DNA of 64,000 bases from Siphonodentalium dalli (taxonomy: Eukaryota > Mollusca > Scaphopoda > Gadilida > Siphonodentaliidae), in NCBI GenBank assembly GCA_032622095.1, contig CP136066.1, forward strand, positions 105,235,319 through 105,299,318. Reading direction: 5' to 3'. The translations under genes were made by a program, and so were the position numbers. The notes under the pieces are model-generated. The model worked only from the letters and a program-made list of their open reading frames with translations. It ran no database searches and had not been told where the DNA came from. This document shows positions 3,647 to 41,910 of this stretch, piece after piece (within the stretch, counting starts at the first letter, position 1; each line of letters begins with the position of its first letter).

Positions 3647-3655
3647 ACTCATTAT

Positions 3656-4222: not shown

Positions 4223-4353
4223 ACAATCATGATCACAGTCACATGTTTGATATTTATTTCCACAAGTTTTATATGCGATGGATGGAAAAAAATATGGGTG
4301 AATGCATAAGCATATTTCAGAGAGATTCCTGTATGACTCAATGTGGCGATCGT

Positions 4354-4601
4354 TTAACCCTTTGAGTGCCAGGGGCCGATCTCATCGGCCCTAAACCTAC
4401 AAAATAAGTCTGTTAAAGAATATAAGAATAAATTATTAAAATTGTAAAAAATTAAAAAAAAATTAAAACAAATAATGTTAGGCCAATGCATTCTCTTATA
4501 TATGCGAGGCGACCTATGGTCGACTCGCATATATAAGAGAATGCATTGGCACAGGGTATATGGGTTGATACAAAAATCGGACCTGGCACTCAAAGGATTA
4601 A
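4354..4601 (+). mobile_element. TTAA-type (piggyBac-like) MITE with internal hairpin, copy A
   Basis: TTAA flanks both ends. Termini are CCCTTTGAGTGCCAGG and CCTGGCACTCAAAGG. TTAA duplication with CCC-type termini is the hallmark of piggyBac-class elements. The interior holds a near-perfect hairpin at 4483-4549 whose stem starts CCAATGCATTCTCTTATATA. No ORF. An almost identical copy in reverse orientation lies at 55452-55698. Confidence 0.8.
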
Positions 4602-5714
4602 AGGGATCTTAAACACAAAATTTAGGGCTTTACACATAAAATAAATGAGGCAAATTGATGCGACAATGTCCACCTTGAACTGAACTGTTACATATGTGAG
4701 AAACTATTGCCATGGACCTGTTATGATTTACCATATTATACGCTGAATTCAAGGGATTTGAATATTTTTCAATAACTCACATCACACACACTTCGTTGAA
4801 AAGTAATTGGTCAAAAAATTTCAGAAAATAACTTAAACAAATGGCCATGTGGCCCATGACCGTTTGTTGAACTAATTATCTGAAAGAGATGGATTCTCCC
4901 ACCAGTTATATAAGTGTATGAAATAAGCTTATAGTGGAATGGTCTATAATTCATTTGGAGGGTAGTTCAGGAAATACAAGTGCAGAAGGTTTCCTATTCA
5001 TTGGTCAAAATTGTTCAGAAATTAAGTTCAACAAACGGCCTATGCGGCCCATGACCGTTTGTTGAACTAATTATCCAAAAGAGATGGATTCTCCCACCAG
5101 TTATATAAGCATGCATTGGAATGGACTATATTCATTTGGAGGGTTTATCGGGAAATACAAGTGCAGAAGGATACATATTCATTGGGGAAAATTGTTCATC
5201 AAATAAGTTCATCTCGTATTATATAATCGTACATTGGAATGGTCTGGAATTAATTTGGAGGGTTGTTCAGGAAATACAAATGCACAAGGATTCCTACTCA
5301 TTGGGGAAAATTGTTCAGAAAATAAGTTTAACAAATGGCCTATGCGGCCCATTACCGTTTGTTGAACTAATTTTCTGAAAGAGATGGATTCTCCACCAGT
5401 TATATAAGCGTAAGAAATAAGTGTATAGTGGAATGGTCTATAATTCATTTGGAGAGCAGTTAGGGAAATACAAATGCAGAAGGATTCCTATTCATTGGTG
5501 AAAATTGTTCAGAAAATTAGTTCAACAAATGGCCTATGCGGCCCATGACCGTTTGTTTAACTAATTATCTGAAAGAGATGGATTCTCCCACCAGTTATGT
5601 AAGCGTAAGAAATAAGCATACATTGGAATGGTCTATAATTCATTTGTAGTGTTGTTCAGGAAATACAAGTGCAGAAGGATTCCTATTCGTTGGTTAAAAT
5701 AGTTCAGAAAATAA

Positions 5715-5756
5715 GTTCAACAAACGGCCTATGCGGCCCATGACCGTTTGTTGAAC
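5715..5756. repeat. Type A palindrome (representative)
   Basis: 13-nt arms GTTCAACAAACGG and CCGTTTGTTGAAC enclose CCTATGCGGCCCATGA, which itself contains GGCC...GGCC pairing. Nearly every type A unit has this hairpin, with a few recurrent variants (AAATGG, AAACGACC or AAAAGG on the left; TTTATTG or TTTTTTG on the right) that mark subfamilies. Confidence 0.9.
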
Positions 5757-7498
5757 TAATTATCCGAAAGAGATGGATTCTCCACCAGTTATATAAGCGT
5801 AAGAAATAAGCATACATATACCAAATGTAACGTTTGTTGAACTAATTATCTGAAAGAGATGGATTCTCCCACCAGTTATATAAGCATAAGAAATAAGCGT
5901 ACATTGCAATGCTCAATAATTCATTTAGAAGGTTGTTAAAAAATTAAAGTGCCGAACGATTCCTATTCATTAGTGAAAATTATTTAGAAAATAAGTTCAA
6001 CCAACGACCTATGCGGCCCATGACCGTTTTTTGAACTAATTATCTGAAAGAGATGGATTCTCCACCAGTTATATATTAAAGCGTATGAAATAAGCGTATA
6101 GTGGAATGGTCTATAATTCATTTGGAGGGTAGTTCAGGAAAGACAAGTGCAGAAGGATTCCTATTTATTGGTAAAAATTGTTCAGAAAATAAGTTCAACA
6201 AACGGCCTATGCGGCCCATGACCGTTTGTTGAACTAATTATCCGAAAGAGATGGATTCCCCCACCAGTTATATAAGTGTGCATTGGAATGGACTATATTC
6301 ATTTGGAGGGCTGTTCGGGAAATACAAGTGCAGAAGGATACATATTCATTTGGGAAAATTGTTCATCAAATAAGTTCATCTGGTATTATATAATCGTACA
6401 TTGGAATGGTCTGGAATTCATTTGGAGGGTTGTTCAGGAAATACAATTGTACAAGGATTCCTACTCATTGGGGAAAATTGTTAAGAACATAATTTCAACG
6501 AACGGCCTATGCGGCCATTGACCATTTGTTGAACTAATCTTAAAGAGATGGATTCTCCCACAAGTTATATAACTGTACATTGGAATGGCCTGTAATTAAT
6601 TTGGACGGAAGTTCTGGAAATACAACTGCAGAAGGATACATATTCATCAGGGAAAATTGTTCATCAAATAAGTTCAATTAAAATAATCGAACATTGGAAA
6701 GGTTAATAATTCATTTTGAGGGTTGTTCAGGAAATACAAGTGCAGAAGGATACATATTCTTTGGGGAAAATTGTCATTCAAATAAGTTCAACTAGTATTA
6801 TATAATCGTAAATTGGAATGGTCTATAATTCATTTGGAGGGTGGTTTGGGAAATGCAAGTGCAGAACGATTCCTATTCATGGGTGAAAATTGTTCAGAAA
6901 ATAATTTCAACAAATGGCCTATGCGGCCATGACCGTTTGTTGAACTAATTATCCGAAAGAGATGGATTCCCCCACCAGTTATATATAAGTGTGCATTGGA
7001 ATGGACTATATTCATTTGGAGGGTTGTTCGGGAAATACAAATGCAGAAAGATACATATTCATTTGGGAAAATTGTTCATCAAATAAGTTCATCTGGTATT
7101 ATATAATCGTACATTGGAATGGTCTGGAATTCGTTTGGAGGGTTGTTCAGGAAATACAAATGTACAAGGATTCCTACTCATTGTGGAAAATTGTTTAGAA
7201 CATAATTTCAATGAACGGGCTATGCGGCCATTGACCATTTGTTGAACTAATCTTAAAGAGATGGATTCTCCCACAAGTTATATAACTGTACATTGGAATG
7301 GGCTGTAATTAATTTGGACGGAAGTTCTGGAAATACAACTGCAGAAGGATACATATTCATCAGGGAAAATTGTTCATCAAATAAGTTCAATTAAAAAAAT
7401 CGAAGATTGGAAAGGTTAATAATTCATTTTGAGGGTTGTTCAGGAAATACAAGTGCAGAAGGATACATATTCATTGGGGAAAATTGTTCATCAAATCA

Positions 7499-7524
7499 GT
7501 TCAATTGGTAATATATAATTGAAC
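7499..7524. repeat. Type B palindrome (representative)
   Basis: GTTCAATT ... AATTGAAC forms a perfect 8-bp-arm inverted repeat with a 10-nt spacer, at the same place in the unit where type A has its longer palindrome. Related B-like units have AAGTTCATCTGG or AAGTTCAACTAG there and lack the symmetry. Confidence 0.75.
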
Positions 7525-8424
7525 ATTGGAATGGTTAATAATTCATTTTGAGGTTTGTTCAGGAAATACAAGTACAGAAGGATACATATTCTTTGGGGAA
7601 AATTGTCATTCAAATAAGTTCAACTAGTATTATATAATCGTACATTGGAATGGTCTAAAATTCATTTGGAGGGTGGTTTGGGAAATGCAAGTGCCGAACG
7701 ATTCCTATTCATTGGTGAAAATTGTTCAGAAAATAAGTTCAACAAACGGCCTATGCGGCCCATGACCGTTTGTTGAACTAATTATCTGAAAGAGATGGAT
7801 TCTCCCACCAGTTATATAAGTGTAAGAAATAAGCATACATTGGAATGGTCTATAATTCATTTGGAGTGTTGTTCAGGAAATATAAGTGCAGAAGGATCCT
7901 ATTCGTTGATTAAAATAGTTCAGAAAATAAGTTCAACAAACGGCCTATGCGGCCCATGACCGTTTGTTGAACTAATTATCTGAAAGAAATGGATTCTCCC
8001 ACCAGTTATATAAGCGTAAGAAATAAACATACATTGGAATGGTCTATACATGTAATTAATTTGGAGCGTTGTTCAGGAAATACCAAGTGCAGAAGGATTC
8101 CAATTCGTTGGTGAAAATTGTTCAGAAAATAAGTTCAACAAATGGCCAATGCGGCCGATTACCGTTTGTTGAACTAATTATCTGAAAGAGATGGATTCTC
8201 CACCAGTTATATAAGCGTAAGAAATAAGCGTACATTGGAATGCTCAATAATTCATTTAGAAGGTTGTTCAAAAATTAAAGTACCGAACGATTCCTATTCT
8301 CCCACCAGTTATATAAGTGTATGAAATAAGTGTATAGTGGAATGGTCTATAATTCATTTGGAGGGTAGTTCAGGAAATACAAGTGCAGAAGGATTCCTAT
8401 TCATTGGTGAAAATTGTTCAGAAA

Positions 8425-11400: not shown

Positions 11401-11560
11401 ATGCGGCCCATGACCGTTTGTTGAACTAATTATCTGAAAGAGATGGATTCTCCCACCAGTTATGTAAGCATGCATTGGAATGGACTATATTCATTTGGAG
11501 GGTTGTTCGGGAAATACAAATGCAGAAAGATACATATTCATTTGGGAAAATTGTTCATCA
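8425..11560 (+). repeat. 1.48-kb higher-order repeat, about 2.1 copies
   Basis: The run of units starting with AACAAATAGCCTATGCGG and GTTATGTAAGCATGCATTGG near 8425 recurs 1479 bp later (8524 matches 10003) and starts a third time near 11387. That third copy breaks off around 11570 and jumps to a type B unit. The two full copies match except for scattered single-base differences. Confidence 0.8.
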
Positions 11561-13579: not shown

Positions 13580-16500
13580 AATTATCTGAAAGAGATGGAT
13601 TCTCCACCAGATATATAAGCGTACATTGGAATGGTCTATAATTCATTTGGAGGGTTGTTCAGTAAATACAAGTGCAGAAGGTTTCCTATTCATTGGTCAA
13701 AATTGTTCAGAAAATAAGTTCAACAAATGGCCTATGCGGCCCATGACCGTTTATTGAACTAATTATCTGAAAGAGATGGATTCTTACACCAGTTATATAA
13801 CCATAAGAAATAAGCATACATTGGAATGGTCTATAATTCATTTGGAGGGTAGTTCAGGAAATACAAGTGCAGAAGGCTACATATTCATTGGGGAAAATTA
13901 TTCATCAAATAAGTTCAATTGGTAATATATAATTGAACATTGGAATGGTTAATAATTCATTTGGAGGGTTGTTCAGGAAATAAAAGTGCAGAACGATTCC
14001 TATTCATTGGTGAAAATTGTTCAGAAAATAAGTTCAACAAAAGGCCTATGCGGCCCATGACCGTTTGTTGAACTAATTATCTGAAAGAGATGGATTCTCC
14101 CACCAGTTATATAACCATAAGAAATAAGCATACATTGGAATGGTCTATAATTCATTTGGAGGGTAGTTCAGGAAATACAAGTGCAGAAGGATTCCTATTC
14201 ATTGGACAAAATTGTTCAGAAAATAAGTTCATCAAACGGCCTATGCGGCCCATGACCGTTTATTGAACTAATTATCCGAAAGAGATGGATTATCCCACCA
14301 GTTATATAAGCGTTAGAAATAAGCATACATTGGAATGGTCTATAATTCATTTTGAGGGTTGTTCAGGAAATACAAGTGCAGAAGGCTACATATTCATTGG
14401 GGAAAATTGTTCATCAAATAAGTTCAATTGGTAATATATAATTGAACATTGGAATGGTTAATAATTCATTTGGAGGGGTGTTCAGGAAATACAAGTGCAG
14501 AGGGATTCCTATTCATTGGACAAAATTGTTCAGAAAATAAGTTCAACAAACGGCCTATGCGGCCCATGACCGTTTTTTGAACTAATTATCTGAAAGAGAT
14601 GGATTCTCCCACCAGTTATATAAGCGTAAGAAATAAGCATACATTGGAATGGTCTATAATTCATTTGGAAGGTTGTTCAAAAATTAAAGTGCAGAAGAAT
14701 TCCTATTCATTAGTGAAAATTATTTAGAAAATAAGTTCAACAAACGACCTATGCGGCCCATGACCGTTTTTTGAACTAATTATCTGAAAGAGATGGATTC
14801 TCCCACCAGTTATATAAGCGTATGAAATAAGTGTATAGTGGAATGGTCTATAATTCATTTGGAGGGTAGTTCAGGAAATACAAGTGCAGTTCTAAGGATT
14901 CCTATTCATTGGTCAAAATTGTTCAGAAAATAAGTTCAACAAACGACCTATGCGGCCCATGACCGTTTGTTGAACTAATTATCTGAAAGAGATGGATTCT
15001 CCACCAGTTATATAAGTGTGCATTGGAATGGACTATATTCATTTGGAGGGCTGTTCGGGAAATACAAGTGCAGAAAGATACATATTCATTTGGGAAAATT
15101 GTTCATCAAATAAGTTAATCTGGTATTATATAATCGTACATTGGAATGGTATGGAATTCATTTGGAGGGTTGTTCAGGAAATACAAATGTACAAGGATTT
15201 CTACTCATTGGGGAAAATTGTTAAGAACATAATTTCAACGAACGGCCTATGCGGCCATTGACCATTTGTTGAACTAATCTTAAAGAGATGGATTCTACCA
15301 CAAGTTATATAACTGTACATTGGAATGGCCTGTAATTAATTTGGACGGAAGTTCTGGAAATACAACTGCAGAAGGATACATATTCATCAGGGAAAATTGT
15401 TCATAAAATAAGTTCAATTAAAATAATCCAACATTGGAAAGGTTAATAATTCATTTTGATGGTTGTTCAGGAAATTCAAGCGCAGAACGATACATATTCA
15501 TTGGGGAAAATTGTCATTCAAATAAGTTCAACTAGTATTATATAACCGTACATTGGAATGGTCTATAATTCATTTGGAGGGTGGTTTGGGAAATGCAAGT
15601 GCAGAAGGATTCCTATTCATTGGTGAAAATTGTTCAGAAAATAAGTTCAACAAATGGCCTATGCGGCCCATGACCGTTTGTTGAACTAATTATCTGAAAG
15701 AGATGGATTCTCCCACCAGTTATATAAGCGTAAGAAATAAGCATACATTGGAATTGTCCATAATTCATTTTTATAATTCATTTGGAGTGTTGTTCAGGAA
15801 ATACAAGTGCAGAAGAATTCCTATTCATTTGTCAAAATTGTTCAGAAATTAAGTTCAACAAACGGCCTATGCGGCCCATGACCGTTTGTTGAACTAATTA
15901 TCTGAAAGAGATGGATTTTCCCACCAGTTATATAAGCATGCATTGGAATGGACTATATTCATTTGGAGGGTTGTTCTGGAAATACAAATGCAGAAAGATA
16001 CATATTCATTTGGGAAAATTGTTCATCAAATTAGTTCATCTGGTATTATATAATCGTACATTGGAATGGTCTGTAATTCATTTGGAGGGTTGTTCAGGAA
16101 ATACAAATGCACAAGGATTCCTACTCATTGGGGAAAATTGTTAAGAAAATAAGTTCAACAAATGGCCTATGCGGCCCATGACCGTTTGTTGAACTAATTA
16201 TCTGAAAGAGATGGATTCTTACACCAGTTATATAAGCGTACATTGGAATGGCTTGTAATTAATTTGGACGGAAGTTCTGGAAATACAACTGCAGAAGGAT
16301 ACATATTCATCAGGGAAAATTGTTCATCAAATAAGTTCAATTGGTAATATATAATTGAACATGGGAATGGTTAGTAATTCATTTTGAGGGTTGTTCATGA
16401 AATACAAGTGCAGAAGGCTACATATTCATTGGGGAAAATTATTCATCAAATAAGTTCAATTGATAACATATAATTGAACATTGGAATGGTTAATAATTCA

Positions 16501-19500
16501 TTTGGAGGGTTGTTCAGGAAATACAAGTGCAGAAGGATTCCTATTCATATGTGAAAATTGTTCAGAAAATAAGTTCAACAAAAGGCCTATGCGGCCCATG
16601 ACCGTTTGTTGAACTAATTATCCGAAAGAGATGGATTATCCCACCAGTTATATAAGCGTTAGAAATAAGCATACATTGGAATGGTCTATAATTCATTTTG
16701 AGGGTTGTTCAGGAAATACAAGTGCAGAAGGCTACATATTCATTGGGGAAAATTGTTCATCAAATAAGTTCAATTGGTAATATATAATTGAACATTGGAA
16801 TGGTTAATAATTCATTTGGAGGGTTGTTCAGGAAATACAAGTGCAGAAGGATTCCTATTCATTGAACAAAATTGTTCAGAAAATAAGTTCAACAAACGGC
16901 CTATGCGGCCCATGACCGTTTGTTGAACTAATTATCTGAAAGAGATGGATTCTCCACCAGTTATATAAGCGTATGAAATAAGCATATAGTGGAATGGTCT
17001 ATAATTCATTTGGAGGGTAGTTCAGGAAATACAAGTGCAGTTCTAAGGATTCGTATTCATTGATCAAAATTGTTCAGAAAATAAGTTCAACAAACGGCCT
17101 ATGCGGCCCATGACCGTTTGTTGAACTAATTATCTGAAAGAGATGGATTCTCCACCAGATATATAAGCGTACATTGGAACGGTCTATAATTCATTTGGAG
17201 TGTTGTTCAGGAAATACAAGGGCAGAAGGATTCCTATTCGTTGATTAAAATAGTTCAGAAAATAAGTTCAACAAATGGCTTATGCGGCCCATGACCGTTT
17301 GTTGAACTAATTATCTGAAAGAGATGGATTCTCCCACCAGTTATATAAGCGTAAGAAATAAGCGTACATTGCAATGCTCAATAATTCATTTGGAAGGTTG
17401 TTAAAAAATTAAAGTGCCGAACGATTCCTATTCATTAGTGAAAATTATTTAGAAAATAAGTTCAACAAACGACCTATGCGGCCCATGACCGTTTTTTTAA
17501 CTAATTATCTGAAAGAGATGGATTCTCCACCAGATATATAAGCGTATGAAATAAGTGTATAGTGGAATGGTCTATAATTCATTTGGAGGGTAGTTCAGGA
17601 AATACAAGTGCAGTTCTAAGGATTCCTATTCATTGGTCAAAATTGTTCAGAAAATAAGTTCAACAAACGGCCTATGCGGCCCATGACCGTTTGTTGAACT
17701 AATTATCTGAAAGAGATGGATTCTCCACCAGATATATAAGCGTACATTGGAATGGTCTATAATTCATTTGGAGGGTTGTTCTGGAAATACAACTGCAGAA
17801 GGATACATATTCATCGGGGAAAATTGTTCATCAAATAAGTTCAATTGATAATATATAATTGAACATGGGAATGGTTAGTAATTCATTTTGAGGGTTGTTC
17901 ATGAAATACAAGTGCAGAAGGCTACATATTCATTGGGGAAAGTTATTCATCAAATAAGTTCAATTGGTAATATATAATTGAACATTGCAATGGTTAATAA
18001 TAATTCATTTGGAGGGTTGTTCAGGAAATAAAAGTGCAGAACGATTCCTATTCATTGGTGAAAATTGTTCAGAAAATAAGTTCAACAAATAGCCTATGCG
18101 GCCCATGACCGTTTGTTGAACTAATTATCTGAAAGAGATTGATTCTCCGCCAGATATATAAGCGTACATTGGAACGGTCTATAATTCATATGGAGTGTTG
18201 TTCAGGAAATACAAGGGCAGAAGGATTCCTATTCGTTGATTAAAATAGTTCAGAAAATAAGTTCAACAAATGGCTTATGCGGCCCATGACCGTTTGTTGA
18301 ACTAATTATCTGAAAGAGATGGATTCTCCCACCAGTTATATAAGCGTAAGAAATAAGCGTACATTGCAATGCTCAATAATTCATTTGGAAGGTTGTTCAA
18401 AAATTAAAGTGCCGAACGATTCCTATTCATTAGTGAAAATTATTTAGAAAATAAGTTCAACAAACGACCTATGCGGCCCATGATCGTTTTTTTAACTAAT
18501 TATCTGAAAGAGATGGATTCTACCACCAGTTATATAAGCATATGAAATAAGTGTATAGTGGAATGGTCTATAATTCATTTGGAGGGTAGTTCAGGAAATA
18601 CAAGTGCAGTTCTAAGGATTCCTATTCATTGGTCAAAATTGTTCAGAAAATAAGTTCAACAAACGGCCTATGCGGCCCATGACCGTTTGTTGAACTAATT
18701 ATCTGAAAGAGATGGATTCTCCACCAGATATATAAGCGTACATTGGAACGGTCTATAATTCATATGGAGTGTTGTTCAGGAAATACAAGGGCAGAAGGAT
18801 TCCTATTCGTTGATTAAAATAGTTCAGAAAATAAGTTCAACAAATGGCTTATGCGGCCCATGACCGTTTGTTGAACTAATTATCTGAAAGAGATGGATTC
18901 TCCCACCAGTTATATAAGCGTAAGAAATAAGCGTACATTGCAATGCTCAATAATTCATTTGGAAGGTTGTTCAAAAATTAAAGTGCCGAACGATTCCTAT
19001 TCATTAGTGAAAATTATTTAGAAAATAAGTTCAACAAACAACCTATGCGGCCCATGATCGTTTTTTTAACTAATTATCTGAAAGAGATGGATTCTACCAC
19101 CAGTTATATAAGCGTATGAAATAAGTGTATAGTGGAATGGTCTATAATTCATTTGGAGGGTAGTTCAGGAAATACAAGTGCAGTTCTAAGGATTCCTATT
19201 CATTGGTCAAAATTGTTCAGAAAATAAGTTCAACAAACGGCCTATGCGGCCCATGACCGTTTGTTGAACTAATTATCTGAAAGAGATGGATTCTCCACCA
19301 GATATATAAGCGTACATTGGAATGGTCTATAATTCATTTGGAGGGTTGTTCAGTAAATACAAGTGCAGAAGGTTTCCTATTCATTGGTCAAAATTGTTCA
19401 GAAAATAAGTTCAACAAATGGCCTATGCGGCCCATGACCGTTTATTGAACTAATTATCTGAAAGAGATGGATTCTTACACCAGTTATATAACCATAAGAA

Positions 19501-22500
19501 ATAAGCATACATTGGAATGGTCTATAATTCATTTGGAGGGTAGTTCAGGAAATACAAGTGCAGAAGGCTACATATTCATTGGGGAAAATTATTCATCAAA
19601 TAAGTTCAATTGGTAATATATAATTGAACATGGGAATGGTTAGTAATTCATTTTGAGGGTTGTTCATGAAATACAAGTGCAGAAGGCTACATATTCATTG
19701 GGGAAAATTATTCATCAAATAAGTTCAATTGGTAATATATAATTGAACATTGGAATGGTTAATAATTCATTTGGAGGGTTGTTCAGGAAATAAAAGTGCA
19801 GAACGATTCCTATTCATTGGTGAAAATTGTTCAGAAAATAAGTTCAACAAAAGGCCTATGCGGCCCATGACCGTTTGTTGAACTAATTATCTGAAAGAGA
19901 TGGATTCTCCCACCAGTTATATAACCATAAGAAATAAGCATACATTGGAATGGTCTATAATTCATTTGGAGGGTAGTTCAGGAAATACAAGTGCAGAAGG
20001 ATTCCTATTCATTGGACAAAATTGTTCAGAAAATAAGTTCATCAAACGGCCTATGCGGCCCATGACCGTTTTTTGAACTAATTATCTGAAAGAGATGGAT
20101 TCTCCCACCAGTTATATAAGCGTAAGAAATAAGCATACATTGGAATGGTCTATAATTCATTTGGAAGGTTGTTAAAAAATTAAAGTGCAGAAGAATTCCT
20201 ATTCATTAGTGAAAATTATTTAGAAAATAAGTTCAACAAACGACCTATGCGGCCCATGACCGTTTTTTGAACTAATTATCTGAAAGAGATGGATTCTCCC
20301 ACCAGTTATATAAGCGTATGAAATAAGTGTATAGTGGAATGGTCTATAATTCATTTGGAGGGTAGTTCAGGAAATACAAGTGCAGTTCTAAGGATTCCTA
20401 TTCATTGGTCAAAATTGTTCAGAAAATAAGTTCAACAAACGACCTATGCGGCCCATGACCGTTTGTTGAACTAATTATCTGAAAGAGATGGATTCTCCAC
20501 CAGTTATATAAGTGTGCATTGGAATGGACTATATTCATTTGGAGGGCTGTTCGGGAAATACAAGTGCAGAAAGATACATATTCATTTGGGAAAATTGTTC
20601 ATCAAATAAGTTAATCTGGTATTATATAATCGTACATTGGAATGGTATGGAATTCATTTGGAGGGTTGTTCAGGAAATACAAATGTACAAGGATTTCTAC
20701 TCATTGGGGAAAATTGTTAAGAACATAATTTCATTAGTGAAAATTATTTAGAAAATAAGTTCAACAAACGACCTATGTGGCCCATGATCGTTTTTTCAAC
20801 TAATTATCTGAAAGAGATGGATTCTACCACCAGTTATATAAGCGTATGAAATAAGTGTATAGTGGAATGGTCTATAATTCATTTGGAGGGTAGTTCAGGA
20901 AATACAAGTGCAGTTCTAAGGATTCCTATTCATTGGTCAAAATTGTTCAGAAAATAAGTTCAACAAACGGCCTATGCGGCCCATGACCGTTTGTTGAACT
21001 AATTATCTGAAAGAGATGGATTCTCCACCAGATATATAAGCGTACATTGGAATGGTCTATAATTCATTTGGAGGGTTGTTCAGTAAATACAAGTGCAGAA
21101 GGTTTCCTATTCATTGGTCAAAATTGTTCAGAAAATAAGTTCAACAAATGGCCTATGCGGCCCATGACCGTTTATTGAACTAATTATCTGAAAGAGATGG
21201 ATTCTTACACCAGTTATATAACCATAAGAAATAAGCATACATTGGAATGGTCTATAATTCATTTGGAGGGTAGTTCAGGAAATACAAGTGCAGAAGGCTA
21301 CATATTCATTGGGGAAAATTATTCATCAAATAAGTTCAATTGGTAATATATAATTGAACATGGGAATGGTTAGTAATTCATTTTGAGGGTTGTTCATGAA
21401 ATACAAGTGCAGAAGGCTACATATTCATTGGGGAAAATTATTCATCAAATAAGTTCAATTGGTAATATATAATTGAACATTGGAATGGTTAATAATTCAT
21501 TTGGAGGGTTGTTCAGGAAATAAAAGTGCAGAACGATTCCTATTCATTGGTGAAAATTGTTCAGAAAATAAGTTCAACAAAAGGCCTATGCGGCCCATGA
21601 CCGTTTGTTGAACTAATTATCTGAAAGAGATGGATTCTCCCACCAGTTATATAACCATAAGAAATAAGCATACATTGGAATGGTCTATAATTCATTTGGA
21701 GGGTAGTTCAGGAAATACAAGTGCAGAAGGATTCCTATTCATTGGACAAAATTGTTCAGAAAATAAGTTCATCAAACGGCCTATGCGGCCCATGACCGTT
21801 TTTTGAACTAATTATCTGAAAGAGATGGATTCTCCCACCAGTTATATAAGCGTAAGAAATAAGCATACATTGGAATGGTCTATAATTCATTTGGAAGGTT
21901 GTTAAAAAATTAAAGTGCAGAAGAATTCCTATTCATTAGTGAAAATTATTTAGAAAATAAGTTCAACAAACGACCTATGCGGCCCATGACCGTTTTTTGA
22001 ACTAATTATCTGAAAGAGATGGATTCTCCCACCAGTTATATAAGCGTATGAAATAAGTGTATAGTGGAATGGTCTATAATTCATTTGGAGGGTAGTTCAG
22101 GAAATACAAGTGCAGTTCTAAGGATTCCTATTCATTGGTCAAAATTGTTCAGAAAATAAGTTCAACAAACGACCTATGCGGCCCATGACCGTTTGTTGAA
22201 CTAATTATCTGAAAGAGATGGATTCTCCACCAGTTATATAAGTGTGCATTGGAATGGACTATATTCATTTGGAGGGCTGTTCGGGAAATACAAGTGCAGA
22301 AAGATACATATTCATTTGGGAAAATTGTTCATCAAATAAGTTAATCTGGTATTATATAATCGTACATTGGAATGGTATGGAATTCATTTGGAGGGTTGTT
22401 CAGGAAATACAAATGTACAAGGATTTCTACTCATTGGGGAAAATTGTTAAGAACATAATTTCATTAGTGAAAATTATTTAGAAAATAAGTTCAACAAACG

Positions 22501-25500
22501 ACCTATGCGGCCCATGATCGTTTTTTCAACTAATTATCTGAAAGAGATGGATTCTACCACCAGTTATATAAGCGTATGAAATAAGTGTATAGTGGAATGG
22601 TCTATAATTCATTTGGAGGGTAGTTCAGGAAATACAAGTGCAGTTCTAAGGATTCCTATTCATTGGTCAAAATTGTTCAGAAAATAAGTTCAACAAACGG
22701 CCTATGTGGCCCATGACCGTTTGTTGAACTAATTATCTGAAAGAGATGGATTCTCCACCAGATATATAAGCGTACATTGGAATGGTCTATAATTCATTTG
22801 GAGGGTTGTTCAGTAAATACAAGTGCAGAAGGTTTCCTATTCATTGGTCAAAATTGTTCAGAAAATAAGTTCAACAAATGGCCTATGCGGCCCATGACCG
22901 TTTATTGAACTAATTATCTGAAAGAGATGGATTCTTACACCAGTTATATAACCATAAGAAATAAGCATACATTGGAATGGTCTATAATTCATTTGGAGGG
23001 TAGTTCAGGAAATACAAGTGCAGAAGGCTACATATTCATTGGGGAAAATTATTCATCAAATAAGTTCAATTGGTAATATATAATTGAACATGGGAATGGT
23101 TAGTAATTCATTTTGAGGGTTGTTCATGAAATACAAGTGCAGAAGGCTACATATTCATTGGGGAAAATTATTCATCAAATAAGTTCAATTGGTAATATAT
23201 AATTGAACATTGGAATGGTTAATAATTCATTTGGAGGGTTGTTCAGGAAATAAAAGTGCAGAACGATTCCTATTCATTGGTGAAAATTGTTCATAAAATA
23301 AGTTCAACAAAAGGCCTATGCGGCCCATGACCGTTTGTTGAACTAATTATCTGAAAGAGATGGATTCTCCCACCAGTTATATAACCATAAGAAATAAGCA
23401 TACATTGGAATGGTCTATAATTCATTTGGAGGGTAGTTCAGGAAATACAAGTGCAGAAGGATTCCTATTCATTGGACAAAATTGTTCAGAAAATAAGTTC
23501 ATCAAACGGCCTATGCGGCCCATGACCGTTTATTGAACTAATTATCCGAAAGAGATGGATTATCCCACCAGTTATATAAGCGTTAGAAATAAGCATACAT
23601 TGGAATGGTCTATAATTCATTTTGAGGGTTGTTCAGGAAATACAAGTGCAGAAGGCTACATATTCATTGGGGAAAATTGTTCATCAAATAAGTTCAATTG
23701 GTAATATATAATTGAACATTGGAATGGTTAATAATTCATTTGGAGGGGTGTTCAGGAAATACAAGTGCAGAGGGATTCCTATTCATTGGACAAAATTGTT
23801 CAGAAAATAAGTTCAACAAACGGCCTATGCGGCCCATGACCGTTTTTTGAACTAATTATCTGAAAGAGATGGATTCTCCCACCAGTTATATAAGCGTAAG
23901 AAATAAGCATACATTGGAATGGTCTATAATTCATTTGGAAGGTTGTTCAAAAATTAAAGTGCAGAAGAATTCCTATTCATTAGTGAAAATTATTTAGAAA
24001 ATAAGTTCAACAAACGACCTATGCGGCCCATGACCGTTTTTTGAACTAATTATCTGAAAGAGATGGATTCTCCCACCAGTTATATAAGCGTATGAAATAA
24101 GTGTATAGTGGAATGGTCTATAATTCATTTGGAGGGTAGTTCAGGAAATACAAGTGCAGTTCTAAGGATTCCTATTCATTGGTCAAAATTGTTCAGAAAA
24201 TAAGTTCAACAAACGACCTATGCGGCCCATGACCGTTTGTTGAACTAATTATCTGAAAGAGATGGATTCTCCACCAGTTATATAAGTGTGCATTGGAATG
24301 GACTATATTCATTTGGAGGGCTGTTCGGGAAATACAAGTGCAGAAAGATACATATTCATTTGGGAAAATTGTTCATCAAATAAGTTAATCTGGTATTATA
24401 TAATCGTACATTGGAATGGTATGGAATTCATTTGGAGGGTTGTTCAGGAAATACAAATGTACAAGGATTTCTACTCATTGGGGAAAATTGTTAAGAACAT
24501 AATTTCAACGAACGGCCTATGCGGCCATTGACCATTTGTTGAACTAATCTTAAAGAGATGGATTCTACCACAAGTTATATAACTGTACATTGGAATGGCC
24601 TGTAATTAATTTGGACGGAAGTTCTGGAAATACAACTGCAGAAGGATACATATTCATCAGGGAAAATTGTTCATAAAATAAGTTCAATTAAAATAATCCA
24701 ACATTGGAAAGGTTAATAATTCATTTTGATGGTTGTTCAGGAAATTCAAGCGCAGAACGATACATATTCATTGGGGAAAATTGTCATTCAAATAAGTTCA
24801 ACTAGTATTATATAACCGTACATTGGAATGGTCTATAATTCATTTGGAGGGTGGTTTGGGAAATGCAAGTGCAGAAGGATTCCTATTCATTGGTGAAAAT
24901 TGTTCAGAAAATAAGTTCAACAAATGGCCTATGCGGCCCATGACCGTTTGTTGAACTAATTATCTGAAAGAGATGGATTCTCCCACCAGTTATATAAGCG
25001 TAAGAAATAAGCATACATTGGAATTGTCCATAATTCATTTTTATAATTCATTTGGAGTGTTGTTCAGGAAATACAAGTGCAGAAGAATTCCTATTCATTT
25101 GTCAAAATTGTTCAGAAATTAAGTTCAACAAACGGCCTATGCGGCCCATGACCGTTTGTTGAACTAATTATCTGAAAGAGATGGATTTTCCCACCAGTTA
25201 TATAAGCATGCATTGGAATGGACTATATTCATTTGGAGGGTTGTTCTGGAAATACAAATGCAGAAAGATACATATTCATTTGGGAAAATTGTTCATCAAA
25301 TTAGTTCATCTGTTATTATATAATCGTACATTGGAATGGTCTATAATTCATTTGGAGGGTTGTTCAGGAAATACAAATGCACAAGGATTCCTACTCATTG
25401 GGGAAAATTGTTAAGAAAATAAGTTCAACAAATGGCCTATGCGGCCCATGACCGTTTGTTGAACTAATTATCTGAAAGAGATGGATTCTTACACCAGTTA

Positions 25501-28500
25501 TATAAGCGTACATTGGAATGGCTTGTAATTAATTTGGACGGAAGTTCTGGAAATACAACTGCAGAAGGATACATATTCATCAGGGAAAATTGTTCATCAA
25601 ATAAGTTCAATTGGTAATATATAATTGAACATGGGAATGGTTAGTAATTCATTTTGAGGGTTGTTCATGAAATACAAGTGCAGAAGGCTACATATTCATT
25701 GGGGAAAATTATTCATCAAATAAGTTCAATTGATAACATATAATTGAACATTGGAATGGTTAATAATTCATTTGGAGGGTTGTTCAGGAAATACAAGTGC
25801 AGAAGGATTCCTATTCATATGTGAAAATTGTTCAGAAAATAAGTTCAACAAAAGGCCTATGCGGCCCATGACCGTTTGTTGAACTAATTATCCGAAAGAG
25901 ATGGATTATCCCACCAGTTATATAAGCGTTAGAAATAAGCATACATTGGAATGGTCTATAATTCATTTTGAGGGTTGTTCAGGAAATACAAGTGCAGAAG
26001 GCTACATATTCATTGGGGAAAATTGTTCATCAAATAAGTTCAATTGGTAATATATAATTGAACATTGGAATGGTTAATAATTCATTTGGAGGGTTGTTCA
26101 GGAAATACAAGTGCAGAAGGATTCCTATTCATTGAACAAAATTGTTCAGAAAATAAGTTCAACAAACGGCCTATGCGGCCCATGACCGTTTGTTGAACTA
26201 ATTATCTGAAAGAGATGGATTCTCCACCAGTTATATAAGCGTATGAAATAAGCATATAGTGGAATGGTCTATAATTCATTTGGAGGGTAGTTCAGGAAAT
26301 ACAAGTGCAGTTCTAAGGATTCGTATTCATTGATCAAAATTGTTCAGAAAATAAGTTCAACAAACGGCCTATGCGGCCCATGACCGTTTGTTGAACTAAT
26401 TATCTGAAAGAGATGGATTCTCCACCAGATATATAAGCGTACATTGGAACGGTCTATAATTCATTTGGAGTGTTGTTCAGGAAATACAAGGGCAGAAGGA
26501 TTCCTATTCGTTGATTAAAATAGTTCAGAAAATAAGTTCAACAAATGGCTTATGCGGCCCATGACCGTTTGTTGAACTAATTATCTGAAAGAGATGGATT
26601 CTCCCACCAGTTATATAAGCGTAAGAAATAAGCGTACATTGCAATGCTCAATAATTCATTTGGAAGGTTGTTAAAAAATTAAAGTGCCGAACGATTCCTA
26701 TTCATTAGTGAAAATTATTTAGAAAATAAGTTCAACAAACGACCTATGCGGCCCATGACCGTTTTTTTAACTAATTATCTGAAAGAGATGGATTCTCCAC
26801 CAGATATATAAGCGTATGAAATAAGTGTATAGTGGAATGGTCTATAATTCATTTGGAGGGTAGTTCAGGAAATACAAGTGCAGTTCTAAGGATTCCTATT
26901 CATTGGTCAAAATTGTTCAGAAAATAAGTTCAACAAACGGCCTATGCGGCCCATGACCGTTTGTTGAACTAATTATCTGAAAGAGATGGATTCTCCACCA
27001 GATATATAAGCGTACATTGGAATGGTCTATAATTCATTTGGAGGGTTGTTCTGGAAATACAACTGCAGAAGGATACATATTCATCGGGGAAATTGTTCAT
27101 CAAATAAGTTCAATTGATAATATATAATTGAACATGGGAATGGTTAGTAATTCATTTTGAGGGTTGTTCATGAAATACAAGTGCAGAAGGCTACATATTC
27201 ATTGGGGAAAGTTATTCATCAAATAAGTTCAATTGGTAATATATAATTGAACATTGCAATGGTTAATAATAATTCATTTGGAGGGTTGTTCAGGAAATAA
27301 AAGTGCAGAACGATTCCTATTCATTGGTGAAAATTGTTCAGAAAATAAGTTCAACAAATAGCCTATGCGGCCCATGACCGTTTGTTGAACTAATTATCTG
27401 AAAGAGATTGATTCTCCACCAGATATATAAGCGTACATTGGAACGGTCTATAATTCATATGGAGTGTTGTTCAGGAAATACAAGGGCAGAAGGATTCCTA
27501 TTCGTTGATTAAAATAGTTCAGAAAATAAGTTCAACAAATGGCTTATGCGGCCCATGACCGTTTGTTGAACTAATTATCTGAAAGAGATGGATTCTCCCA
27601 CCAGTTATATAAGCGTAAGAAATAAGCGTACATTGCAATGCTCAATAATTCATTTGGAGGGTTGTTCAAAAATTAAAGTGCCGAACGATTCCTATTCATT
27701 AGTGAAAATTATTTAGAAAATAAGTTCAACAAACGACCTATGCGGCCCATGATCGTTTTTTTAACTAATTATCTGAAAGAGATGGATTCTACTACCAGTT
27801 ATATAAGCATATGAAATAAGTGTATAGTGGAATGGTCTATAATTCATTTGGAGGGTAGTTCAGGAAATACAAGTGCAGTTCTAAGGATTCCTATTCATTG
27901 GTCAAAATTGTTCAGAAAATAAGTTCAACAAACGGCCTATGCGGCCCATGACCGTTTGTTGAACTAATTATCTGAAAGAGATGGATTCTCCACCAGATAT
28001 ATAAGCGTACATTGGAATGGTCTATAATTCATTTGGAGGGTTGTTCAGTAAATACAAGTGCAGAAGGTTTCCTATTCATTGGTCAAAATTGTTCAGAAAA
28101 TAAGTTCAACAAATGGCCTATGCGGCCCATGACCGTTTATTGAACTAATTATCTGAAAGAGATGGATTCTTACACCAGTTATATAACCATAAGAAATAAG
28201 CATACATTGGAATGGTCTATAATTCATTTGGAGGGTAGTTCAGGAAATACAAGTGCAGAAGGCTACATATTCATTGGGGAAAATTATTCATCAAATAAGT
28301 TCAATTGGTAATATATAATTGAACATGGGAATGGTTAGTAATTCATTTTGAGGGTTGTTCATGAAATACAAGTGCAGAAGGCTACATATTCATTGGGGAA
28401 AATTATTCATCAAATAAGTTCAATTGGTAATATATAATTGAACATTGGAATGGTTAATAATTCATTTGGAGGGTTGTTCAGGAAATAAAAGTGCAGAACG

Positions 28501-31305
28501 ATTCCTATTCATTGGTGAAAATTGTTCAGAAAATAAGTTCAACAAAAGGCCTATGCGGCCCATGACCGTTTGTTGAACTAATTATCTGAAAGAGATGGAT
28601 TCTCCCACCAGTTATATAACCATAAGAAATAAGCATACATTGGAATGGTCTATAATTCATTTGGAGGGTAGTTCAGGAAATACAAGTGCAGAAGGATTCC
28701 TATTCATTGGACAAAATTGTTCAGAAAATAAGTTCATCAAACGGCCTATGCGGCCCATGACCGTTTATTGAACTAATTATCCGAAAGAGATGGATTATCC
28801 CACCAGTTATATAAGCGTTAGAAATAAGCATACATTGGAATGGTCTATAATTCATTTTGAGGGTTGTTCAGGAAATACAAGTGCAGAAGGCTACATTTTC
28901 ATTGGGGAAAATTGTTCATCAAATAAGTTCAATTGGTAATATATAATTGAACATTGGAATGGTTAATAATTCATTTGGAGGGGTGTTCAGGAAATACAAG
29001 TGCAGAAGGATTCCTATTCATTGGACAAAATTGTTCAGAAAATAAGTTCAACAAACGGCCTATGCGGCCCATGACCGTTTTTTGAACTAATTATCTGAAA
29101 GAGATGGATTCTCCCACCAGTTATATAAGCGTAAGAAATAAGCATACATTGGAATGGTCTATAATTCATTTGGAAGGTTGTTCAAAAATTAAAGTGCAGA
29201 AGAATTCCTATTCATTAGTGAAAATTATTTAGAAAATAAGTTCAACAAACGACCTATGCGGCCCATGACCGTTTTTTGAACTAATTATCTGAAAGAGATG
29301 GATTCTCCCACCAGTTATATAAGCGTATGAAATAAGTGTATAGTGGAATGGTCTATAATTCATTTGGAGGGTAGTTCAGGAAATACAAGTGCAGTTCTAA
29401 GGATTCCTATTCATTGGTCAAAATTGTTCAGAAAATAAGTTCAACAAACGACCTATGCGGCCCATGACCGTTTGTTGAACTAATTATCTGAAAGAGATGG
29501 ATTCTCCACCAGTTATATAAGTGTGCATTGGAATGGACTATATTCATTTGGAGGGCTGTTCGGGAAATACAAGTGCAGAAAGATACATATTCATTTGGGA
29601 AAATTGTTCATCAAATAAGTTAATCTGGTATTATATAATCGTACATTGGAATGGTATGGAATTCATTTGGAGGGTTGTTCAGGAAATACAAATGTACAAG
29701 GATTTCTACTCATTGGGGAAAATTGTTAAGAACATAATTTCAACGAACGGCCTATGCGGCCATTGACCATTTGTTGAACTAATCTTAAAGAGATGGATTC
29801 TCCCACAAGTTATATAACTGTACATTGGAATGGCCTGTAATTAATTTGGACGGAAGTTCTGGAAATACAACTGCAGAAGGATACATATTCATCAGGGAAA
29901 ATTGTTCATAAAAAAAGTTCAATTAAAATAATCCAACATTGGAAAGGTTAATAATTCATTTTGAGGGTTGTTCAGGAAATTCAAGTGCAGAACGATACAT
30001 ATTCATTGGGGAAAATTGTCATTCAAATAAGTTCAACTAGTATTATATAACCGTACATTGGAATGGTCTATAATTCATTTGGAGGGTGGTTTGGGAAATG
30101 CAAGTGCAGAAGGATTCCTATTCATTGGTGAAAATTGTTCAGAAAATAAGTTCAACAAATGGCCTATGCGGCCCATGACCGTTTGTTGAACTAATTATCT
30201 GAAAGAGATGGATTCTCCCACCAGTTATATAAGCGTAAGAAATAAGCATACATTGGAATTGTCCATAATTCATTTTTATAATTCATTTGGAGTGTTGTTC
30301 AGGAAATACAAGTGCAGAAGAATTCCTATTCATTTGTCAAAATTGTTCAGAAATTAAGTTCAACAAACGGCCTATGCGGCCCATGACCGTTTGTTGAACT
30401 AATTATCTGAAAGAGATGGATTTTCCCACCAGTTATATAAGCATGCATTGGAATGGACTATATTCATTTGGAGGGTTGTTCTGGAAATACAAATGCAGAA
30501 AGATACATATTCATTTGGGAAAATTGTTCATCAAATTAGTTCATCTGGTATTATATAATCGTACATTGGAATGGTCTGTAATTCATTTGGAGGGTTGTTC
30601 AGGAAATACAAATGCACAAGGATTCCTACTCATTGGGGAAAATTGTTAAGAAAATAAGTTCAACAAATGGCCTATGCGGCCCATGACCGTTTGTTGAACT
30701 AATTATCTGAAAGAGATGGATTCTTACACCAGTTATATAAGCGTACATTGGAATGGCTTGTAATTAATTTGGACGGAAGTTCTGGAAATACAACTGCAGA
30801 AGGATACATATTCATCAGGGAAAATTGTTCATCAAATAAGTTCAATTGGTAATATATAATTGAACATGGGAATGGTTAGTAATTCATTTTGAGGGTTGTT
30901 CATGAAATACAAGTGCAGAAGGCTACATATTCATTGGGGAAAATTATTCATCAAATAAGTTCAATTGATAACATATAATTGAACATTGGAATGGTTAATA
31001 ATTCATTTGGAGGGTTGTTCAGGAAATACAAGTGCAGAAGGATTCCTATTCATATGTGAAAATTGTTCAGAAAATAAGTTCAACAAAAGGCCTATGCGGC
31101 CCATGACCGTTTGTTGAACTAATTATCCGAAAGAGATGGATTATCCCACCAGTTATATAAGCGTTAGAAATAAGCATACATTGGAATGGTCTATAATTCA
31201 TTTTGAGGGTTGTTCAGGAAATACAAGTGCAGAAGGCTACATATTCATTGGGGAAAATTGTTCATCAAATAAGTTCAATTGGTAATATATAATTGAACAT
31301 TGGAA
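13580..31305 (+). repeat. Large higher-order duplications (~9.2 kb and a 3.3-kb block present three times)
   Basis: Segments from about 13.1 to 22.2 kb recur at an offset of 9151 or 9270 bp; the two offsets differ by exactly one 119-bp type B unit. Example: the unit at 15016 matches 24286. A block at 22.73-26.07 kb recurs at 27.97-31.30 kb (offset 5235), so that stretch exists three times with the copy at ~13.6-16.8 kb. The first large copy has an extra ~574-bp tandem step between about 18.15 and 19.30 kb that the second lacks. Copies look nearly identical by eye, implying recent amplification. Confidence 0.8.
19260..22720 (+). repeat. 1.73-kb higher-order repeat, two tandem copies
   Basis: Positions 19316 and 20512 match 21046 and 22242 (offset 1730). 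The same ~1.73-kb arrangement, with length changes, is seen from about 11.88 to 13.61 kb and from 22.7 kb onward. Each copy contains the same illegitimate junction AACATAATTTCATTAGTGAA (about 13309, 20730, 22460), so the junction predates the amplification. Confidence 0.75.
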
Positions 31306-34300
31306 TGTTGAACTAATTATCCCAAAGAGATGGATTATCCCACCAGTTATATAAGCGTTAGAAATAAGCATACATTGGAATGGTCTATAATTCATTTTGA
31401 GGGTTGTTCAGGAAATACAAGTGCAGAAGGCTACATATTCATTGGGGAAAATTGTTCATCAAATAAGTTCAATTGGTAATATATAATTGAACATTGGAAT
31501 GGTTAATAATTCATTTGGAGGGTTGTTCAGGAAATACAAGTGCAGAAGGATTCCTATTCATTTGTGAAAATTGTTCAGAAAATAAGTTCAACAAAAGGCC
31601 TATGCGGCCCATGACCGTTTGTTGAACTAATTATCTGAAAGAGATGGATTCTCCCACCAGTTGTATAAGCGTAAGAAATAAGCATACATTGGAATGGTCT
31701 ATAATTCATTTGGAGTGTTGTTCAGGAAAAACAAGTGCAGAAGGATTCCTATTCATTGGACAAAATTGTTCAGAAAATAAGTTCAGCAAACGGCCTATGC
31801 GGACCTTGACTGTTTGTTGAACTAATTATCTGAAAGAGATGGATTCTCCCACCAGTTATATAAGCGTATATTGGAATGGTCTATAATTCATTCGGAGTGT
31901 TGTTCAGGAAAAACAAGTGCAGAAGGATTCCTATTCATTGGACAAAATTGTTCAGAAAATAAGTTCAACATACGGCCTATACGGCCCATGACCGTTTGTT
32001 GAACTAATTATCCGAAAGAGATGGATTCTCCCACCAGTTATATAAGCGTAAGAAATAAGCATACATTGGAATGGTCTATAATTCATTTGGAGGGCGGTTC
32101 GGGAAATACAAGTGCAGAAGGATTCCTATTCATTGGTCAAAATTGTTCAGAAAATAAGTTCAACAAACGGCTTATGCGGCCCATGACCGTTTTTTGAACT
32201 AATTATCTGAAAGAGATGGATTCTCCCACCAGTTATATAAGCATGCATTGGAATGGTCTGGAATTCATTTGGAGGATTGTTCGGGAAATACAAATGCAGA
32301 AGGATACATATTCATTTGGGAAAATTGTCATACAAATAAGTTCAACTGGTATTATATATTCGTATATTGGAATGGTCTATAATTCATTTGGAGGGCGGTT
32401 CGGGAAATACAAGTGCAGAAGGATTCCTATTCATTGGTCAAAATTGTTCAGAAAATAAGTTCAACAAACGGCTTATGCGGCCCATGACAGTTTGTTGAAC
32501 TAATTATCTGAAAGAGATGGATTCTCCCACCAGTTATATAAGCGTATGAAATAAGTGTATAGTGGAATGGACTATAATTCATTTGGAGGGTTGTTCAGTA
32601 AATACAAGTGCAGAAGGTTTCCTATTCATTGGTCAAAATTGTTCAGAAAATAAGTTCAACAAATGGCCTATGCGGCCCATGACCGTTTGTTGAACTAATT
32701 ATCTGAAAGAGATGGATTCTTACACCAGTTATATAAGCGTACATTGGAATGGCTTGTAATTAATTTGGACGGAAGTTCTGGAAATACAACTGCAGAAGGA
32801 TACATATTCATCGGGGAAAATTGTTCATCAAATATGTTCAATTGGTAATATATAATTGAACATGGGAATGGTTAGTAATTCATTTTGAGGGTTGTTCATG
32901 AAATACAAGTGCAGAAGGCTACATATTCATTGGGGAAAATTATTCATCAAATAAGTTCAATTGGTAATATATAATTGAACATTGGAATGGTTAATAATTC
33001 ATTTGGAGGGTTGTTCAGGAAATACAAGTGCAGAAGGATTCCTATTCATATGTGAAAATTGTTCAGAAAATAAATTCAACAAAAGGCCTATGCGGCCCAT
33101 GACCGTTTGTTGAACTAATTATCTGAAAGAGATGGATTCTCCCACCAGTTATATAAGCGTAAGAAATAAGCATACATTGGAATGGTCTATAATTCATTTG
33201 GAGTGTTGTTCAGGAAATACAAGTGCAGAAGGATTCCTATTCATTGGACAAAATTCTTCAGAAAATAAGTTCATCAAACGGCCTATGCGGCCCATGACCG
33301 TTTATTGAACTAATTATCTGAAAGAGATGGATTCTCCACCAGTTATATAAGCGTATGAAATAAGTGTATAGTGGAATGGTCTATAATTCATTTGGAGGGT
33401 AGTTCAGGAAATACAAGTGCAGTTCCAAGGATTCCTATTCATTGATTCTCCTATTCATTACACCAGTTATATAAGCGTACATTGGAATGGCTTGTAATTA
33501 ATTTGGACGGAAGTTCTGGAAATACAACTGCAGAAGGATACATATTCATTGGGGAAAATTGTTCATCAAATAAGTTCAATTGGTAATATATAATTGAACA
33601 TGGGAATGGTTAGTAATTCATTTTGAGGGTTGTTCATGAAATACAAGTGCAGAAGGCTACATATTCATTGGGGAAAATTATTCATCAAATAAGTTCAATT
33701 GGTAATATATAATTGAACATTGCAATGGTTAATAATTCATTTGGAGGGTTGTTCAGGAAATAAAAGTGCAGAACGATTCCTATTCATTAGTGAAAATTAT
33801 TTAGAAAATAAGTTCAACAAACGACCTATGCGGCCCATGACCGTTTTTTGAACTAATTATCCGAAAGAGATGGATTCTCCCACCAGTTATATAACCATAA
33901 GAAATAAGCATACATTGGAATGGTCTATAATTCATTTTGAGGGTTGTTCAGGAAATACAAGTGCAGAAGGCTACATATTCATTGGGGAAAATTGTTCATC
34001 AAATAAGTTCAATTGGTAATATATAATTGAACATTGGAATGGTTAATAATTCATTTGGAGGGGTGTTCAGGAAATACAAGTGCAGAAGGATTCCTATTCA
34101 TTGGACAAAATTGTTCAGAAAATAAGTTCAACAAACGGCCTATGCGGCCCATGACCGTTTTTTGAACTAATTATCTGAAAGAGATGGATTCTCCCACCAG
34201 TTATATAAGTGTAAGAAATAAGCATACATTGGAATGGTCTATAATTCATTTGGAAGGTTGTTCAAAAATTAAAGTGCAGAAGAATTCCTATTCATTAGTG

Positions 34301-37300: not shown

Positions 37301-37640
37301 ATTCTCCCACCAGTTATATAAGCATGCATTGGAATGGTCTGGAATTCATTTGGAGGATTGTTCGGGAAATACAAATGCAGAAGGATACATATTCATTTGG
37401 GAAAATTGTCATACAAATAAGTTCAACTGGTATTATATATTCGTATATTGGAATGGTCTATAATTCATTTGGAGGGCGGTTCGGGAAATACAAGTGCAGA
37501 AGGATTCCTATTCATTGGTCAAAATTGTTCAGAAAATAAGTTCAACAAACGGCTTATGCGGCCCATGACAGTTTGTTGAACTAATTATCTGAAAGAGATG
37601 GATTCTCCCACCAGTTATATAAGCGTATGAAATAAGTGTA
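31306..37640 (+). repeat. 1.25-kb block repeated 5081 bp apart
   Basis: 31.31-32.56 kb recurs at 36.39-37.64 kb, including the distinctive units around 32216 and 37297, the variant GCGGACCTTGACTGTTTG and the CATACGGCC variant. The first copy starts at an abrupt chimeric junction near 31306, where a type B unit is cut after ACATTGGAAT and fused to GTTGAACTAATTATCCC. Confidence 0.75.
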
Positions 37641-40600: not shown

Positions 40601-40659
40601 ATCTGAAAGAGATGGATTCTCCCACCAGGTATATCAGCATAAGAAATAAGCATACATTG

Positions 40660-41262
40660 TAATGGTCTATAATTCATTTGGAGGGTTGTTCAGGAAATAC
40701 AAGTTCAGAAGCATTCCTACTCATTGGTCAAAATTGTTAAGAAAATATGTTCAACAAACGGCCAATGGTCTTTTATTCATTTGGATGGTAGTTCTGGAAA
40801 TAAAAGTGCAGGAGGATTCCTATTCATTAATGAAAAATATTCAGAATATAAGTTCATTTCACTTATATAATGGTCTATATAAAATTCATCTGGAGGGTTG
40901 TTCAGGAAATACAATTGCAGGAGAGGGGATTCATATTTTGATGAAAATGTTCAGAAAATAAGGTCAGCATTATAATGGCCTCTGCAGCCCATTGACGTTT
41001 GTTGAACTTATTATCTGAACGAGATGAATTCGCCCTCCAGTTATATAAGGGTGTTGTCTAAGCATACATTGGAAAGGTCAAAAACCATCAGGAGGGTTGT
41101 TCATGAAAAAAGTCGACAACAGCTAACAGATGTGCAGAAGGATTACTATTCAACAAACAGCTAGGCTATAGATCACATATCTGCTTGTTGAACTTGTCAT
41201 CTGAACATTCCCTTTGTACTACATGTACTCGTCAATGAGTATTTTGTATGGAAATGGTTTAA
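40660..41262 (+). repeat. Diverged right edge of the array with TTAA-type terminus
   Basis: The last three or four units are heavily diverged and shortened. The final one retains ACATTGGAAAGGTC, GGAGGGTTGTTC, GTGCAGAAGGATTACTATTC and a degraded palindrome. It then continues into CATGTACTCGTCAATGAGTA and GGAAATGGTTTAA. ACTCGTCAATGAGTAT also ends the single-copy relative at 62183-62425, and the reverse complement of this terminus opens the fragment at 62762. The array therefore ends at the natural end of a mobile element. Confidence 0.7.
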
Positions 41263-41710: not shown

Positions 41711-41717
41711 GAATATA

Positions 41718-41865: not shown

Positions 41866-41910
41866 TAGCTTTCTAACATCTCTGGATATGCGATACTCTG
41901 ATACCAAAGA

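Follow-up and report, generated by a model that had tools for sequence, protein, structure and literature searches.

We propose that the satellite array at positions 4804-41262 of a 64,000-nucleotide stretch of the genome of the scaphopod mollusc Siphonodentalium dalli (contig CP136066.1; hereafter the window, C6:105235319-105299318 of the 2.23 Gb searched on nine contigs of 190-301 Mb) very probably descends from one miniature inverted-repeat transposable element (MITE), whose interior would have expanded a single time inside a longer carrier segment, whose left end was lost, and whose carrier was then duplicated, the arrays in its copies growing separately. An array had been placed at these positions by an earlier note made from the letters of the window, and it is there: a profile of the repeat unit gives 226 plus-strand matches, a fuzzy anchor picks out 222 units with main spacings of 119, 175, 195, 139, 185 and 181, and Tandem Repeats Finder covers the array with overlapping periods of about 114-119, 181-198 and 300-314 and longer ones. 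There are no Ns in the window. Long head-to-tail arrays of this kind, with higher-order duplication, occur at several loci, and the seven read from edge to edge hold about 24 to 226 units. The parts of the window array are as follows.

4804-41021, plus strand: satellite array of long (about 175-195 bp) and short (119 bp) units in a single orientation
41022-41262, plus strand: terminal unit, a copy of the MITE from its position 18 to the right TTAA (41259-41262), with only the left terminus absent
about 41105-41127, plus strand: MITE segment beginning GCAGACGACAG in the consensus, kept in the window array by the terminal unit alone (1/222 units)
41227-41262, plus strand: right-end block ACTCGTCAATGAGTATT followed by the degraded right terminus with its TTAA

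The MITE family was collected by searching the whole genome with positions 62183-62434 of the window. This returned 5997 first-look candidates, 40 of which were scored; all 40 match the query (at 79-85%, the query itself apart), most of them over nearly its full length, and they are spread over all nine contigs. Twenty single copies chosen by their similarity to element 62183 (19 fetched copies and that element) were aligned into a consensus and profile. The consensus is 251 bp long with TTAA at both ends, individual copies varying; each of its ends carries a perfect 17-bp inverted terminus, CCCTTTCTATACTAAAT, and its interior holds a 24-bp palindrome, formed by GGAAATGTTCAGATAATAAGTTCA and its complement, with a loop that differs between copies. 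Terminal inverted repeats, a TTAA target duplication, a short length and many copies are what is expected of a TTAA-type MITE; TTAA next to a terminus in CCC is a piggyBac-type trait. Three pieces of the family stand outside the array in the window.

52999-53205, plus strand: single-copy MITE with TTAA at both ends and an intact inverted terminus, CCCTTTTTATACT, carrying an internal deletion
62183-62432, plus strand: single-copy MITE of nearly full length, its right terminus decayed (E 2.7e-71; itself 1 of the 20 profile rows)
62762-62797, minus strand: right-end fragment, interrupted by a TA-flanked palindromic element

Another near full-length copy (L018:8703-8934, minus strand) lies just left of the window.

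The array unit is homologous to the interior of this MITE. A profile built from 45 of the 134 long interior units, with both single-copy elements excluded, scores 77.1 bits against element 62183 (at 62234-62393) and 24.6 bits (53048-53095) and 16.9 bits (53019-53077) against element 52999, and the top score among 100 dinucleotide shuffles of 41401-64000 is 10.8 bits. The likeness to both elements claimed in the earlier note therefore exceeds that of shuffled sequence, with two adjustments to the elements themselves: the first matches the unit as described and ends not at 62425 but at about 62432, in a right terminus that has decayed, and the second does have TTAA at both ends and inverted termini, much of its middle being absent. 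Long units correspond to MITE positions from about 10 or 20 to 198-200 and short units to about 38 to 173. Where two long units meet, TTATCTGAA, at the outer edge of the right arm of the palindrome, is followed by a few bases mostly ending in GAG and then by ATGGATTC, which is the sequence just inside the left terminus of the MITE. This junction, TTATCTGAA..GAG joined to ATGGATTC, has the same form in 11/11 loci compared for it, which argues for one birth of the array and points to a MITE that, judged from sequence, expanded in tandem a single time.

At its right edge the array is joined in register to the end of a MITE. In all eight arrays compared, the profile runs without loss of register as far as the right TTAA, at MITE position 249-250. 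The terminal unit of the window array (41022-41262) is identical to the MITE at 175 of 214 aligned bases and matches profile positions 18-249 with an E of 4.1e-23. By local alignment the right terminus lies at the expected spot in 7/8 arrays, where between 2 and 27 of 300 shuffles score at least as high; that of C6:94.76 has decayed too far for this test. The ACTCGTCAATGAG block that the earlier note had seen at the right edge, followed by the degraded terminus GTATGGAAATGGTTTAA, is confirmed, the block lying at 41227 and again at 62395. Together with the profile matches, this right edge supports the view already taken in that note, that the satellite was born from the interior of a TTAA-type MITE. 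At C6:186 and C6:220 two successive MITE right ends occur with array between them, so that the carrier or the array looks tandemly duplicated there.

The arrays share more than their units, and the sequence around them in the window is divided as follows.

1432-4803, plus strand: left block of the carrier, with later insertions of small elements and the remains of an orphan reading frame
4603-4800, plus strand: carrier sequence adjoining the array, which occurs at 16 genomic places counting this one
41263-43430, plus strand: right block of the carrier, the first 430 or so bases homologous at the other seven loci compared and the remainder at a subset of these

All the loci compared (8/8) are homologous to the right of the TTAA, the main pieces at 64-91% if the near-identical C1 pair is set aside, and between the window and C6:94.64 this homology reaches about window position 43430. 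For the right block there are 16 matching places, one of them the window, distributed over C1, C2, C3, C4, C6 and C9; an additional match at C4:212.91 is 119 bases long, and shorter ones lie in left flanks. Seven new right-block loci were fetched, six of which have array units adjoining in the same orientation and the seventh a minisatellite of the right-end block. The left flank is common to the window, C9:195, C6:94.64, C6:220 and both C1 copies, with its outer limit at window position 1432; at C6:94.76 the array is all that is in common on the left side. The 198 bases left of the array (16/16 candidates scored) recur largely at the right-block loci, some of which have two copies, and at one of their places, C9:33.88, they run into array again. 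A second piece of the left flank recurs at several carrier loci and at C3:69.71 among the 40 of 1150 candidates scored, which are mostly a different small element within the query. Because flanks beyond the array are common to the loci, spread by duplication of a larger segment, not by transposition, is indicated; the arrays are, as far as sequence can tell, not independent insertions, and the carrier would have been duplicated across six contigs after the array began. Two of the array loci, C1:144.25 and C1:144.42, lie about 168 kb apart with a left flank 99.6% identical, the result of a recent duplication or an assembly duplicate.

A carrier that is itself a large mobile element, with the satellite as a regular part of it, is the alternative that survives best, and we regard it as unlikely. 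Its copies are spread over C1, C2, C3, C4, C6 and C9; inverted repeats of about 70 bases (75-89%) flank the array on both sides at C6:94.64 and C1:144.25, and in the window by eye only, the computed comparison not listing them there; and the left block at C6:220.16 has an intact orphan reading frame of 306 amino acids. Against this, inspection by eye of where the carrier ends showed no recognisable terminal repeats, and at C1:144.25 and C6:220 the homology continues well past the limits seen elsewhere, as in a segmental duplication. The 306-amino-acid frame matched no Pfam family above cut-off (two fell below it, with E 0.09 and 0.1), no PDB entry and no protein. Pieces of it match the window and C6:94.64, short pieces only match the C1 copies, and nothing matches at C9:195.

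The order of descent can be read from a piece some 22 bases long, GCAGACGACAG with its neighbours, which is present in the MITE and has been lost from the array unit. It is filled at 20 or more of the 22 positions in 20/20 single copies. In the window array it occurs (at 14 or more positions) in 1/222 units, namely the last (1/1 right-end unit against 0/221 others), and in 14 array loci summed by hand it is found in 9/13 right-end units against 16/593 other units, a sum made without two right-end stumps that start beyond the piece, without C2:62.105 and with minus-strand matches dropped. The MITE would therefore be older than the array, since all single copies have the piece and in the window array only the last unit does. 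At C4:173.15 the piece is present in the last unit, the right end being gone, and the right-end unit at C6:94.64 has 13/22 of its positions. The opposite course starts from an older satellite, one monomer of which would have been captured between inverted termini to give the MITE family, a proposal made for miDNA4; it draws on the monomer that satellite and MITE have in common and on the model of Scalvenzi and Pollet (2014), in which, in the part of PMC12628747 that treats it, a pre-existing tandem repeat is captured. We consider it improbable here: the piece is present in every one of the single copies and in most right-end units and absent from nearly all interior units, the array edge carries MITE sequence lying outside the unit up to the TTAA, and the unit junction is absent from the MITE consensus. 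The direction from MITE to satellite is thus the one to which the distribution of the piece points.

We began with the idea that every array had inserted independently and abandoned it, the right flanks beyond the TTAA being homologous. In its stronger form, the expanded MITE would itself have transposed, each array being a separate insertion of the enlarged element. This is very improbable: at most loci the right edge is indeed a terminus with a TTAA or a degraded TTAA, yet homology extends beyond that TTAA in 8/8 loci compared, the places with the left flank are mostly these loci too, and the arrays lack a left terminus. Assembly error or chance likeness of AT-rich DNA, suggested by the proneness of long arrays to misassembly and by the 99% block duplications inside this one, is hardly credible given the shuffle control, a like anatomy with different lengths at other loci and a window without Ns.

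Several observations weigh against the descent of the arrays from one MITE expanded within a carrier, the foremost being on the left side. No left terminus was detected, whether by profile or by local alignment with 300 shuffles, at any of the seven left edges tested (0/7), where the best local scores were reached by 51 to 275 of the 300 shuffles; the left edge of C6:186 lies outside the fetched sequence. Local alignment also bears out the caveat in the earlier note that no left terminus is found near 4804. The same note had the array growing inside one element between its ends, and of this the right end holds as that of a MITE, while the left terminus is absent at 7/7 edges. Because of this absence at every edge tested, growth between two ends is not demonstrated, and neither a MITE enlarged between two ends nor an array lying between both was found. 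No case of 2-5 units between two intact termini was seen among the 40 scored MITEs of 5997 candidates, in a far from exhaustive search biased towards single copies of full length. Long MITE-derived arrays may lose their ends, according to passages of two reviews (PMC9659126, PMC12628747).

The choice of loci and copies belongs on the same side of the balance. The eight arrays (the window and seven clusters) were picked by unit similarity alone, with 9 of 3299 candidates scored; the junction count took only sites with both halves at most 34 bases apart, four loci not being included; and the 20 single copies were selected via element 62183, in which the piece is present. Of the new right-block loci, 4/7 have the right-end motif, which is absent at C2:62.124, C4:173.15 and C3:189.31, at the last of which the profile nonetheless detects a right end. 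As for the piece, it is absent from the right-end unit in each C1 copy and from one of the two at C6:220, and 16 units that are not right-end units carry it (at C6:186, C6:220, C6:94.64, both C1 copies, C4:213.02 and C3:189.31). The remainder of the right-end units lies at a distance of 0.12-0.35 from the MITE consensus, no nearer than the interior units (array means 0.12-0.22), and it is for this reason the piece, together with the in-register right end, that carries the direction argument. Finally, no carrier without the MITE was found, so that the insertion event was not seen.

One 10-base match to TTAACCCTTT at window position 4354 was considered as the left terminus of the array and rejected, as it belongs to another MITE at 4354-4602.

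We propose the following course of events. A TTAA-type MITE of about 250 bp with an internal palindrome would have inserted into the carrier, and the part of its interior that starts just inside the left terminus and ends at the outer edge of the right arm of the palindrome would have undergone a single tandem duplication, for which unequal exchange, or slippage or template switching at the palindrome, may be responsible. The left end may have been lost at this stage or never included, after which the element would no longer have transposed. Derived units without the 22-bp piece would then have multiplied inside, the last unit keeping the founder MITE up to the right TTAA. Carrier and array would have been duplicated by some means to about fifteen places on six contigs, and each array would then have grown or shrunk alone, the window copy reaching 226 units through recent block duplications, which lie in the following interval.

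13834-31307, plus strand: recent block duplications within the array, of 5.2 kb (99.1%), 3.6 kb (99.6%) and 2.9 kb (99.6%), with identities of 99.1-99.7% overall

Distances between units, computed after removal of minus-strand matches and of units with at least 15% gaps (584 reduced to 507), average 0.142 within the window array, 0.175-0.215 from the window to the other arrays, and 0.172-0.213 within each of those. The nearest neighbour of a unit lies in its own array for 217/217 units of the window and 119/125 at C6:186; in six small arrays the figure ranges from 0/18, at a locus with a near-identical twin, to 19/34. From these distances and neighbours and from the recent blocks, it seems that the arrays started prior to duplication of the carrier and that the growth of the window array is recent. 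The right-end block has also been multiplied at some of the loci. It is single in most and doubled at C1:19.27 (27-bp spacing), while C6:220 has about 50 copies, each 27-28 bp long, and C2:62.105 has 16 of 28 bp. Because their units differ, these two longer minisatellites look independent. A palindrome-bearing MITE, immobile after the loss of one end, may perhaps act as a lasting hot spot of tandem-repeat birth, having given rise to a satellite of about 119/195 bp and to minisatellites of 27 bp and 28 bp in one family of duplicated loci; we offer this tentatively, as a speculation with somewhat less than even chances.

To our knowledge, the step from mobile element to satellite has mostly been argued from similarity, with the direction left open. 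At the present locus the founding element still stands at the array edge, the lost piece gives a direction, and one junction points to a single birth. With about fifteen daughter loci, the growth of a satellite becomes traceable inside one genome, and its birth, in a MITE, can be separated from its spread, which would have taken place with a duplicated carrier and not by transposition.

The outcome fits the known model of MITE-born satellites and differs from it in the termini, the clear direction and the mode of dispersal. Parts of the reviews PMC9659126 and PMC12628747 describe MITE-derived satellites (Xstir, miDNA4 and others) and arrays that outgrow the MITE and lose its ends. In what these parts say of miDNA4 of Xenopus tropicalis, the satellite motif lies inside a MITE, single or in tandem, and long arrays lose the inverted ends, as here; miDNA4 is listed as Tc1/mariner and as the capture of an existing repeat, whereas the present element is of TTAA type, its unit is the MITE's own interior and it was dispersed with a carrier. 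Xstir and Xmix of Xenopus laevis (Hikosaka and Kawahara 2004), as the same parts present them, are likewise repeats from a MITE interior, with MITE, tandem and joined forms; a stem-loop of two nearby elements is proposed for them, whereas here the junction is common to 11 loci and the spread is with a larger segment. The TIR-220 satellite of Tetris in Drosophila virilis also derives from part of a DNA transposon, in passages of PMC4079207 and PMC9659126, and the latter gives its source as the terminal inverted repeat of a foldback element, in contrast to the present unit, which has the termini outside it. Non-autonomous Helentrons of Crassostrea gigas have tandem repeats tied to a mobile element genome-wide, in the relevant part of PMC7492417; those arrays are borne by the mobile element, whereas here one end is lost and the array rides on a duplicated segment.

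Other repeats and genes were seen in the window. A numerous TA-flanked, almost perfectly palindromic small element, beginning CAGTAATGC and with TTAACCACAGCAGAATTATGGGTAAC inside, occurs at 3963-4180, 41716-41870, 59314-59542, 62797-63010 and elsewhere, and it is one of these that interrupted the MITE fragment at 62762. Pairs of TTAACCACAGCAG, considered as elements of the MITE kind treated here, were rejected, this sequence sitting inside the TA-flanked palindromic element. Other TTAA-flanked small elements, with CCCTTT or CCCTTC termini and a different sequence, lie at 4354-4602, 42691-42961, 55452-55698 and 62498-62705, and the genome seems to hold several TTAA families. The frames of 602, 350 and 218 amino acids on the minus strand at 46806-50280 are presumably a broken reverse transcriptase of a long interspersed nuclear element (LINE), and those at 561-941 and about 61950-62150, also on the minus strand, we take to be C2H2 zinc-finger exons; frames of these two types are suggestive of an animal genome. 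A separate tandem repeat of about 125 bp lies at 51909-52424.

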